From assembly GCA_947581835.1 (NCBI GenBank), contig CANPVV010000006.1, forward strand, positions 1 to 45,551: a DNA stretch of 45,551 nucleotides, read 5' to 3'. The notes below the pieces were generated by a model, which saw only the letters and a list, made by a program, of their open reading frames with translations, had not been told where the DNA came from and made no database searches. Origin of the DNA: an uncultured Bacilli bacterium. GTDB lineage: Bacteria > Bacillota_I > Bacilli_A > RF39 > UBA660. Position 1 is the first letter of the stretch. Each line of letters starts with the position of its first letter. The position numbers were made by a program, and so were the translations under genes. Below are positions 16,805 through 38,118 of this stretch, in pieces.

Positions 16805-17350
16805 ATGACTAAGAATAAAAATAAAGAGTTTGAAAGTTTAGTTAGTGATATTATAAATAATGAATATTTTTTGGAAACAAAAAAAGATTTGCATCATGGA
16901 ACTAGTAAATATGAACATTCGATGAGAGTTGCAAAGTTAAGTTATAAATTAGCAAGAATTTTTAAAGCAGATATTAAAGATACAACTAGAGCGGGTTTGT
17001 TACATGATTTTTTCTTGGGAACGAGGAAAGAAAAACCAGAAAATTCTTATTTAAGACATCCAGTTACAGCAATGAATAATGCTAAAAAGTATTTTAATGT
17101 TAATGATATAGAAGCAGAGGCTATTAAAACACATATGTTTCATCAGGTTTTACTTAAAAAATTATTTCCTTTTATTAATAGAAAAGAAAAGGTTAGTGTC
17201 AAAGAGTTTAAGCCTAAAAGTAAAGAAGGTTGGATTATATGTGCATCAGATTTGTTAGTTTCGATTATGGAATGTGAAAGATTTCAGTTTACATATGTTG
17301 CTAATGTGGCTTTGCTTTTGGTTTTTAATATATTAATGTTTAAAAATTAA
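16805..17350 (+). CDS. HD-domain phosphohydrolase-like protein
   Basis: YEHSMRVAKLSYKLA...AGLLHDFFLG. Confidence 0.8.
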   Translation: MTKNKNKEFESLVSDIINNEYFLETKKDLHHGTSKYEHSMRVAKLSYKLARIFKADIKDTTRAGLLHDFFLGTRKEKPENSYLRHPVTAMNNAKKYFNVNDIEAEAIKTHMFHQVLLKKLFPFINRKEKVSVKEFKPKSKEGWIICASDLLVSIMECERFQFTYVANVALLLVFNILMFKN

Positions 17351-17566
17351 TGATTAGAATAATGCTTGAGAAAGGCATTATTTTTTTTGCTTGACAATCG
17401 TATAAATGTTTGATATAGTGAGTATACAATAAACAAGTTAAAGGGAGGTTTTAGTTTATGAATAATGGTAATAGGAAATAAGATTTATAGTTTTACTGAT
17501 GGAATTAAAGATTTAATTAAATTTTGTAATGAAATGTATTTTTAGCTCTTAGGTGTATAATGAAGT

Positions 17567-17593
17567 TTTAAGGTTCCAATTTGGAACCTTAAA
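17567..17593. repeat. palindrome P1
   Basis: TTTAAGGTTCCAA-T-TTGGAACCTTAAA, 13-bp arms. Confidence 0.95.
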
Positions 17594-17725
17594 GATAGAA
17601 GTGGATAAGCATAGAAAGTATATTCTTATTGATGGAATAAATGTTTTCATATCGGTAAAAAGGGGGATTGGTGAGTTTTTATAGGATATTATTTTTAACT
17701 TGCTTTAGAATAAAGTACAATTCTT

Positions 17726-17748
17726 TAAGGTCGAAAATTTCGACCTTA
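17726..17748. repeat. palindrome P2
   Basis: TAAGGTCGAAA-A-TTTCGACCTTA, 11-bp arms. Confidence 0.95.
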
Positions 17749-17841
17749 GACGTTAAATAAGAAAATTGGGTATGTACTAAAGATTTAAATAAAAGACATA
17801 TGATAAATTTAAGAATTTGTTCACTTGAAGTTCCAAAAATT

Positions 17842-17875
17842 AAACTTGAAGTTCCATTTTTGGAACTTCAAGTTT
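17842..17875. repeat. palindrome P3 with a second competing left arm at 17824-17839
   Basis: AAACTTGAAGTTCCA-TTTT-TGGAACTTCAAGTTT; upstream CTTGAAGTTCCAAAAA also pairs with TTTTTGGAACTTCAAG. Confidence 0.95.
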
Positions 17876-17988
17876 GAATAATTATGATTGTGTTAGTGAT
17901 GAAATAAAGGTTTTGATATCGGTAAAAAGGGGGATTGGTGAGTTTTTAGAGAGATATAGTTTTTAACTTGAGATTCAAGAATTTAAAA

Positions 17989-18015
17989 TTTGCGGTTTCA
18001 ATTTGAAACCGCAAA
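17989..18015. repeat. palindrome P4
   Basis: TTTGCGGTTTCAA-T-TTGAAACCGCAAA, 13-bp arms. Confidence 0.95.
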
Positions 18016-18096
18016 ATTGAAGAATAGGGTATAATTAGAACTAAGTTTTTATTCAATTTGAAGTTACTTTTAAATTATTAGATGATGAAAGTTATG

Positions 18097-18127
18097 TTTT
18101 TTTGGTCGATAATATCGACCAAAAAAA
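18097..18127. repeat. palindrome P5
   Basis: TTTTTTTGGTCGATA-A-TATCGACCAAAAAAA, 15-bp arms. Confidence 0.95.
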
Positions 18128-18231
18128 TAGAGATTAGAGGTAGCAAATATAAAAAAACAACGATATGATATAAGTGTTTTTGTATTAACAATAAGAAAAG
18201 AAAATAATGAAATTAGTGATTTAAAAATATT

Positions 18232-18258
18232 TTCAAGGTTTCAATTTGAAACCTTGAA
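18232..18258. repeat. palindrome P6
   Basis: TTCAAGGTTTCAA-T-TTGAAACCTTGAA, 13-bp arms. Confidence 0.95.
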
Positions 18259-18392
18259 CGGAGATAAGAAAAGCTAAATAGAATAATAATTTAGAGATAA
18301 TATATGTTAGATGGTAGTGTATCACTTTGGAATTTCTTTAAATTATGCAGGTAAAATAAAAAATATTAAAGGAAAATGGGAGGTTTTAGTTT

Positions 18393-18683
18393 ATGAGTGA
18401 AATAATAAATGATTGTCAAGAAATAGAGGATAAGATTTATAGTATTAGAGGAAAGTATGTAATGTTAGACAGTGATTTAGCTAAGATTTATAATTATACT
18501 AATGGTACTAAAGATTTAAATAAATTGGTGAAAAGACATATAGATAAATTTTCTAGTGAAATATATTTTCAGATTTCTTTGGAAGAGTACAATGAGGTTT
18601 TAAGGTTCCAATTTGGAACCTTAGAGATAGGTAGAGGAGGGCATAGAAAATATTTTCCGTATGTATTTACACTTGATGGATAA
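18393..18683 (+). pseudogene. ORF6N-domain protein, truncated by a frameshift near 18680
   Basis: IEDKIYSIRGKYVMLDSDLAKIYNY...LRFQFGTLEIGRGGHRKYFPYVFTLDG*; reading continues in another frame (ILVSIIRKENKEI...) into the next ORF. Confidence 0.7.
18601..18623. repeat. palindrome P7 inside ORF6N coding sequence (encodes RFQFGT)
   Basis: TAAGGTTCCAA-T-TTGGAACCTTA. Confidence 0.95.
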
Positions 18684-18841
18684 GTATTTTAGTATCAATT
18701 ATTAGAAAAGAAAATAAAGAAATAATTTTTCAAAAAATAGAAAAAGGATTTCAAAATAAAAGTGGTTTAATTATTGTAAAAGATGCGGTAAATACTAGGA
18801 AAATAGAGGATTTAATATATGAAGTAAGAGGGGTACAGGTT

Positions 18842-19684
18842 ATGCTTGATAGTGATGTTGCAAGTTTATATAAAGTACCTTCTAAAAGAATTAATGAGGC
18901 AGTAAAAAATAATATCGAGAGGTTTCCAGAGAACTTTTGTTTTCAACTTACTTTAGAAGAATATAATTCTTTAAGGTCGAAAATTTCGACCTTAGACGTT
19001 AAACGAGGAAAATTTCGAAAATATTTACCATATGTTTTTACAGAACAGGGAATTGCGATGCTGAGTGGAATTATAAGAAATCCTATTGCTGTTAAAGTAA
19101 GTATTGCTATAATGAATGCTTTTGTTTTGATGAGAAAAATTATTTCTAAAGACTTGCTTGAGCAAAAGTATTTTAAAAATATGCTTTTAGAACATGATGA
19201 GAAAATAAAATTGTTGGAAAATTCTTTTTTAGAATTTAAGAATAAAGACCAAACTAATATTATTTTTTTTGAAGGACAGATATATGATGCTTATTCAAAA
19301 TTGGTGGATATAATGAGAGAAGCAAAGAGAGAGTTAATTATAGTAGATGGTTATGCTGATAAAGTGGTTTTGGATATGATAAGAGAGATAAAAGTTCCTG
19401 TATATTTGATAACAAAGAAAAATAAAGTATTAAAAGAGTTAGATATAAGAAAATATAGAGAACAGTATGATAATTTAGAGATAATATATAGTGATAGTTT
19501 TCATGATAGGTATTTAGTACTTGATGAAAAAGAGGTATATCACTGTGGAACTTCTTTAAATTATGCAGGTAAAAGAACATTTTCTATAAATAAATTAGAA
19601 GAGGAAGAAATTAAGAATGTTTTGATAACTAAAATAAATGAAATTAGAGGTTTATCTAAAATAGATAAAAATGAAAATAGATAG
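18842..19684 (+). CDS. ORF6N-domain protein with PLD-like C-terminal domain
   Basis: VMLDSDVASLYKVPSKRINEAV...YLPYVFTEQGIAMLSG; C-terminal HDRYLVLDEKEVYHCGTSLNYAGK; reading frame extends upstream (KIEDLIYEVRGVQ) without a good start. Confidence 0.8.
   Translation: MLDSDVASLYKVPSKRINEAVKNNIERFPENFCFQLTLEEYNSLRSKISTLDVKRGKFRKYLPYVFTEQGIAMLSGIIRNPIAVKVSIAIMNAFVLMRKIISKDLLEQKYFKNMLLEHDEKIKLLENSFLEFKNKDQTNIIFFEGQIYDAYSKLVDIMREAKRELIIVDGYADKVVLDMIREIKVPVYLITKKNKVLKELDIRKYREQYDNLEIIYSDSFHDRYLVLDEKEVYHCGTSLNYAGKRTFSINKLEEEEIKNVLITKINEIRGLSKIDKNENR
18972..18994. repeat. palindrome P8 inside ORF6N coding sequence (encodes RSKIST)
   Basis: TAAGGTCGAAA-A-TTTCGACCTTA. Confidence 0.95.
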
Positions 19685-38077: not shown

Positions 38078-38118
38078 TTTTATACAAATTTAAAGTTGTA
38101 CTTTAAATTTGTATAAAA
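38078..38118. promoter_or_regulatory. 19-bp-arm palindrome overlapping promoter of the downstream ATPase
   Basis: TTTTATACAAATTTAAAGT-tgt-ACTTTAAATTTGTATAAAA; -10-like TATAAT at 38125-38130. Confidence 0.7.

Follow-up and report, generated by a model that had tools for sequence, protein, structure and literature searches.

Why should a cluster of perfect DNA palindromes sit within and beside reading frames for ORF6N, a widespread protein domain of unknown function? The question is raised by a locus of an uncultured Bacilli bacterium (family UBA660), of which a stretch of 45,551 nucleotides, here termed the window, was analysed. An initial annotation, made from the sequence alone, reported eight palindromes with perfect arms of 11–15 bp, several arm types with compensatory changes between the two arms, and two copies in ORF6N frames that code RFQFGT and RSKIST. 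These observations held: all eight palindromes (P1–P8) lie where they were reported, the arm types and their compensatory changes were confirmed, and the two coding copies (P7 and P8) fall in frames that match the ORF6N profile PF10543. The features of the locus are as follows.

17391..17419, + strand: promoter-like site TTGACA-17-TATAGT, 11/12 consensus matches, from a consensus scan only
17567..17593, strand-neutral: P1, noncoding palindrome, core GGAA (half-site GGTTCC)
17726..17748, strand-neutral: P2, noncoding palindrome, core TCGA (GGTCGA)
17842..17875, strand-neutral: P3, noncoding palindrome, core GGAA, one additional centre base (even spacing)
17989..18015, strand-neutral: P4, noncoding palindrome, core GAAA (GGTTTC)
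18097..18127, strand-neutral: P5, noncoding palindrome, core TCGA
18232..18258, strand-neutral: P6, noncoding palindrome, core GAAA
18393..18683, + strand: first ORF6N reading frame, 96 aa, PF10543 at 66.6 bits, match to PADLOC PDC-S05
18507..18536, + strand: codons of the first-domain recognition helix TKDLNKLVKR, in which D..K...R predicts core GGAA and matches P7
18601..18623, strand-neutral: P7, in-frame palindrome coding LRFQFGTL, core GGAA, which is the predicted core
18842..19684, + strand: second ORF6N frame, PF10543 at 98.3 bits, match to PDC-S05, with AlphaFold2 model and Foldseek searches
18881..18910, + strand: codons of the second-domain recognition helix SKRINEAVKN, residues 24–33, a helix in the AlphaFold2 models
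18972..18994, strand-neutral: P8, in-frame palindrome coding LRSKISTL, core TCGA, which is the predicted core

The perfect arms of P1 to P8 measure 13, 11, 15, 13, 15, 13, 11 and 11 bp, around a centre of 4 nt in P3 and of a single base in the other seven. Seven palindromes with arms of ≥11 and a centre of ≤1 are observed, compared to none in first-order Markov shuffles of the window. Palindromic sites of the form GGTY-N9-RACC occur in the host genome (1.29 Mb, 59 contigs) only at this locus, as does ORF6N itself, and the cognate protein for P4 and P6 (core GAAA) is no longer present there. The promoter-like site is 5′ of the entire array. Preservation of palindromes in decayed ORF6N copies, which had also been claimed, is clear for P1 and P2 and only partly assignable for P3–P6. 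P1 lies in an ORF6N remnant like P7 (palindrome 23/23 identical, flanks 59/93 plus indels) and P2 in one like P8 (palindrome 23/23, flanks 30/47 plus indels); about one third of the aligned flanking bases differ, while the 23-bp palindromes are unchanged. The surroundings of P3–P6 are a mosaic of short ORF6N-like pieces that cannot be assigned fully. Elsewhere in the window, its longest palindrome (38078–38118; arm 19, centre 3) directly follows a gene end and is probably a terminator.

Both window domains exceed the ORF6N profile cut-off of 27.8 bits, although the genes, which had been supposed to be intact, seem not to be. The second frame is open from 18677 and its domain begins at 18812, with no ATG, GTG or TTG ahead of the 11th domain residue. 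Relatives L185 and L178 (in its N-terminal part) carry both ORF6N domains in a single frame, so the two window ORFs are likely halves of one frameshifted double-ORF6N gene with a break near 18680. The window copy therefore seems to be a fossil, or nearly so, and relatives hold the system in intact form. Despite the frameshift between the two domains, the palindrome of each one fits that domain's own helix. The intergenic site between HD and BacA genes that holds the locus (window 17350–19684) is filled with ORF6N in 5 genomes of the genus and is an empty junction in many others.

ORF6N occurs in 115 of 291 UBA660-family genomes, and 200 distinct genes were compiled from this family, 80 GTDB loci, viral contigs and other Bacilli families. 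The GTDB loci comprise Bacilli, Clostridia, one Desulfohalobiaceae bin and one Cyclobacteriaceae bin; named plasmids and viral contigs gave access to other phyla. The initial annotation would have been refuted by homologues without a palindrome in this codon block, or by arm complementarity no better than in codon-preserving shuffles, and neither is the case. In the first 134 genes, a perfect palindrome with an arm of ≥10 is present in the same codon block in 88, compared to 0.5% of synonymous shuffles. When mismatches are tolerated, at least 8 of the 9 pairs scored (±2 to ±10, around a centre set at the first base of codon 58) form in 182 of the 189 genes that could be anchored. Distant plasmid copies keep their pairs as well (Treponema saccharophilum 9/9, Legionella oakridgensis 8/9, Haliovirga abyssi 8/9). 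Genes scored as lacking a palindrome (arm <8) mostly have one mismatch, typically at ±4 in genes with Arg at residue 29 (the R29 class), where a C/T mismatch is conserved in 19 of 27; it is as if a dimer accepted two half-sites. Of 88 palindrome mismatches, 18 are G.T pairs. A TCGA-type 17-mer, GGTCGAAAATTTCGACC, occurs 44 times in 282 family genomes and its reversed control does not occur; ORF6N sequence was found in the fetched stretch for 28 of 29 loci examined from this search. The exception, L273, has a lone TCGA-type palindrome (187–203) by an FtsW-like frame in a genome without a detected ORF6N gene.

Synonymous bases reveal that the palindrome is conserved at the DNA level. In a test that did not depend on a long arm, Ser56 is paired through its third base with the second base of codon 59 in 99 of 100 genes, where codon usage predicts 18.8. 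The corresponding counts are 128 of 131 for the third base of codon 59 with codon 56 (19.3 expected) and 152 of 165 for the third base of Thr60 with codon 55 (23.1 expected). Six genes have a TCGA-type palindrome that is one base out of phase and codes FLVEIFDQK or FLVENFDQK rather than LRSKISTL. All six have the helix RINEAV(K/R)NN, which is the partner of TCGA in the normal frame. The peptide differs and the helix-site match is kept, so it is the DNA, not the peptide, that is matched.

This match can be written as a code. With position 0 at the centre, the core is defined as +3 to +6 of the right arm, and residues are counted from LIYEVRG of the window protein. When palindrome-coded columns are excluded, mutual information with the core is highest for E29 and R26. 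Residue 33 goes with +3 (R gives G in 102/103 genes, N gives T in 37/37), and residue 29 goes with +4 to +6: E with CGA, Q with TGA or GGA, K with GAA, L with AAA and R with GCA. Among Q29 genes, T26 gives G at +4; other residues at 26 mostly give T. Lys at residue 25 goes with C at +7 in 130 of 130 genes, and other residues there with T in 8 of 10. In the window, K25, R26, E29 and N33 of the second domain predict C at +7 and the core TCGA found in P8. A fixed rule based on residues 26, 29 and 33 gives the exact core in 134 of 140 genes, which were selected for arms of ≥8, compared to a mean of 21.6 and a maximum of 36 for shuffled cores. The 121/127 exact matches in the derivation set are not independent because the rule was read off that set. 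For loci outside the derivation, 17 of 19 are exact, including Legionella, Haliovirga and Parabacteroides. These 17 are 13 loci together with L400, L406, L409 and L415 (the last three read off sequences); some of the 13 were fetched by the TCGA palindrome pattern, and these test the fit of the helix. The two misses are L407, with a previously unseen H33, and L411, in which one half matches. The outer arms (+8 to +13) are also palindromic and of few types, and are not linked to the recognition helix.

Shared ancestry is an obvious objection because the palindrome follows the helix codons by a median of only 69 nt. Neither the flanking residues nor the C-terminal domain accounts for the code. 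Nearest neighbours defined by the N-terminal flanks predict the core in 62 of 140 genes and those defined by residues 35–51, between helix and palindrome, in 64, compared to 123 when the three helix residues define them. With C-terminal sequence as the criterion, the nearest relative predicts it in 46 of 131 genes, and the three residues still do so in 117 of 131 when relatives with ≥45% C-terminal identity are excluded. Of 1321 pairs whose N-terminal flanks are ≥75% identical but whose cores differ, 1315 also differ at residues 26, 29 or 33. L071 and L056 are an example with 89% identical C-terminal parts: their helices end in RNN and RRN, and +3 is T and G, respectively.

A second family follows the same helix-site principle with other sites. 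RhuM (PF13310) occurs in 88 of 145 family genomes, and its palindromes follow its own HTH, with all 8 pairs at ±2 to ±9 in 35 of 64 genes and 7 pairs in another 27. The centre was picked here for best fit, and shorter matches are not all meaningful; a perfect arm of ≥8 is present in 33 of 56 genes. Helix and site change together: TTKNN is found with TCTTAAC, TTRNN with TCTTACA, VQRPA with TGGAACA, VQ(T/V)P with TGGAAAT, RDKSV with TTGCAAC and DRSG with TTGCACA. Some Bacteroides RhuM proteins have a PLD-like C-terminal domain in common with the window protein (38% over 152 residues). RhuM and ORF6N heads on the same PLD-like domain can therefore be read as different DNA-reading heads on one effector. 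In L412, a B. thetaiotaomicron plasmid, and L416, a RhuM N-terminus is fused to the PLD-like domain of the ORF6N protein; this C-terminal part has a weak match to NF040700 (VPA1262).

Structure predictions place the code residues in a helix suited to DNA reading. In both AlphaFold2 models, residues 24–33 form the second HTH helix (helices at 13–20 and 24–33), and the residues coded by the palindrome lie in or beside a low-confidence loop, with 60–65 below 50. Residues 26, 29 and 33 are about one turn apart, and we infer that a contact order from 25 (outermost) to 33 (innermost) would fit a helix in the major groove. The second ORF6N protein is modelled as a wHTH followed by a coiled coil and a PLD-like C-terminal domain. 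The best PDB matches of the whole model in Foldseek are TrmBL2/TrmB regulators (E 2e-6, TM 0.31–0.35), followed by PLD nucleases (NucT, Zucchini) and the PLD-like folds of MITD1 and FAM83. The isolated ORF6N domain has only weak fold matches, to Ski/Dachshund and MerR-like wHTH (best E 0.035), and a PDB sequence search with the window protein found no relatives. The PLD catalytic motif HxKx4D is absent; an invariant HDR-x4-D carries R at the K position, which leaves catalysis uncertain.

A defence context is suggested by PADLOC, in which ORF6N-PLD and RhuM proteins match PDC-S05 (E 6.8e-85), a candidate single-gene defence family for which a rumen survey (PMC13356809) counts 3275 loci. For RhuM, a role as a toxin domain in defence loci has been suggested (PMC3710099). 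Passages found in literature that names PDC-S05 tie no palindrome or mechanism to it. On Treponema saccharophilum plasmid pTS1 (L407), the ORF6N-PLD gene lies between DNA methyltransferase and restriction S-subunit genes, which is a defence-island setting.

ORF6N genes occur in tandem and in decayed arrays, and palindromes also occur near them outside detectable ORF6N sequence: 52 of these have a valid core and 38 do not, several of the latter being RhuM-type. L272 has two noncoding repeat units with common text, in which one palindrome has changed from TTGA to GCGA on both arms. Noncoding arrays with up to six palindromes of mixed core types are seen in L272 (1380–1960), L280 (1240–1700), L252, L093 and L256, and some spacers within these arrays are homologous. 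Noncoding palindromes may be left over from earlier genes, or may serve other family members as sites. The idea that intergenic palindromes are operators of the next gene was dropped: among the 34 genes with palindromes upstream, these fit the helix of the gene that follows in only 8, and cognate half-sites show no enrichment upstream of ORF6N genes. Comparison by eye of filled and empty HD-BacA sites revealed no terminal repeats or target duplications.

The explanation that best accounts for these observations is that each gene's palindrome is a DNA site for its own protein product. Conservation of the palindrome at the DNA level, synonymous pairing, frame independence and the helix-to-site code are shown; physical binding is inferred, without binding or expression data, and we consider it very probable. 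The self-site is strongly supported because codon choice, frame independence, the helix code, the ancestry controls and the second family are lines of evidence that fail in different ways. The protein would bind as a dimer with one recognition helix (residues 24–33) per half-site, in which residue 25 would contact +7, residues 26 and 29 would contact +4/+5, and residue 33 would contact +3. The site lies about 70 nt 3′ of the helix codons, in the coding stretch of the loosely structured loop, and this proximity means that reader and site travel as one short cassette. Among the functions offered by the initial annotation, a DNA site for the ORF6N protein is thus the best supported, with binding itself inferred; its RNA-hairpin and templated-mutation options are disfavoured by the R29 mismatch, the share of G.T pairs among mismatches and the dependence of the site on the helix.

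What such a self-site does is less certain. The most likely function is autorepression from inside the gene, which is inferred without expression data and could as readily prove wrong as right. It is favoured because the fold resembles a regulator and because the gene carries its site into any promoter context. The dimer would block transcription of its own gene inside the coding sequence, as a roadblock about 200 bp after the start, and would keep a candidate defence effector low whatever the promoter context. On this view, the perfect palindromes of decayed copies would be old sites to which related proteins perhaps still bind. The layout of a classical autorepressor, with a cognate site at the promoter too, is not met, and promoter-operator logic has no extra support. 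A bolder reading, towards which we lean without conviction, is that ORF6N and RhuM genes are self-addressed cassettes, each with a helix and a codon-overlapping palindrome within about 70 nt. The same leaning extends to its parts: new specificities would arise through joint change of helix and site, PLD-like and RhuM effector backgrounds would follow one logic in several bacterial phyla, and decayed genes would leave arrays of still-readable sites.

Two rivals also invoke a protein-bound site and are possible but unlikely. In one, the site, again inside the gene itself, serves DNA transactions instead of autorepression: it would act in recombination or mobility, as an origin-like site akin to those within rolling-circle rep genes, or as a cleavage target of the PLD-like domain. 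This is supported by the tandem and decayed arrays, by an HD-BacA site that is filled in 5 relatives and empty in many, by resemblance of the C-terminal domain to the PLD nuclease folds of NucT and Zucchini, and by L272 noncoding units that keep their text while the palindrome type has changed. However, the best fold match is a TrmB-type regulator and the PLD-like folds of MITD1 and FAM83 match too; no terminal repeats or target duplications are seen by eye at HD-BacA sites, and there is no known nicking or strand-transfer domain. In the other, a toxic or defence effector is kept off while bound to the palindrome, and phage infection frees it, either because the host DNA is lost or because binding is, so that the site is an allosteric antidote more than an operator. 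The PDC-S05 matches of ORF6N-PLD and RhuM, the proposed RhuM toxin domain (PMC3710099) and the Treponema copy between type I R-M genes favour this reading, but there are no activity data, PDC-S05 is merely a candidate, and catalytic competence of the HxR motif is not established.

The remaining alternatives are very unlikely. An RNA hairpin in the mRNA, as an attenuator, stability element or protein-binding hairpin, is consistent with strong predicted hairpins (z -3.7 to -7.2). Against it, 18/88 mismatches are G.T pairs, the ±4 position is unpaired and conserved in 19/27 R29 genes, an Rfam search gave only sub-threshold chance matches, and the site tracks the HTH helix. Neutral hairpin-templated mutation, which would perfect any near-palindrome without function, fits arms that are often perfect, in noncoding remnants too, and compensated changes. 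It leaves unexplained the helix code, the conserved GGTY..RACC core in noncoding copies (52 valid cores) and the persistent R29-class mismatch. Hairpin and templated correction are both disfavoured because neither should tolerate the ±4 mismatch of that class. Linkage of a helix and palindrome inherited together about 70 nt apart has the short distance and recombination of N-terminal domains relative to C-termini in its favour, but is contradicted by intervening residues that predict the core in 64/140 genes compared to 123/140 for the helix residues, and by L071 and L056, which differ at residue 33 (N/R) and +3 (T/G) despite C-terminal parts that are 89% identical.

How does a self-encoded site compare with known systems? 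Autoregulated repressors with intragenic operators exist, and I-TevI is an autorepressor that binds in or near its own gene (PMC3943268). As in those systems, a DNA-binding protein would have its site at or in its own gene, with limitation of its own expression inferred for ORF6N; unlike them, the ORF6N/RhuM site is overlapped by codons beside the recognition helix, is present in nearly all members of the two families, and changes type with the helix. Rolling-circle rep genes (pT181 type) and phiX174 gene A hold the target of the encoded protein inside the coding sequence, and plasmids of the pT181 type show covariation between specificity determinants and the internal origin. Rolling-circle rep proteins nick DNA with a catalytic Tyr, whereas ORF6N and RhuM proteins join a wHTH to a PLD-like or RhuM C-terminus, and no replicon is known for them. 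The predicted order of wHTH, coiled coil and PLD-like domain resembles the archaeal regulators TrmB/TrmBL2, although TrmB has no detectable sequence relation to the ORF6N protein and is not known to carry its own operator within its coding sequence. ORF6N-PLD and RhuM proteins match the PADLOC models of PDC-S05 strongly, yet PDC-S05 as described is a label for candidates with no palindrome or mechanism attached. Rickettsia palindromic elements and REP/BIME repeats are palindromes that can sit in coding sequence; unlike these, ORF6N/RhuM palindromes are not dispersed, lie in or beside those genes, and match the encoded helix. A search limited to open-licence papers found none that connects ORF6N or RhuM to palindromes within their own genes. 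In the literature searched, a codon-overlapped site by the recognition helix that changes type with the helix in two families is apparently undescribed.

If binding and regulation are shown as predicted, such genes could deserve their own class. A DNA site can dictate codon and amino-acid choice, which is a trap for protein covariation analysis. The helix-to-base code offers naturally occurring data on wHTH specificity, useful for predicting DNA recognition. ORF6N and RhuM are widespread families of unknown function, and a visible target with a code makes both directly testable. Self-addressed cassettes, if true, would represent a new form of regulatory organisation for a portable defence gene, one that comes with a readable protein-DNA code.
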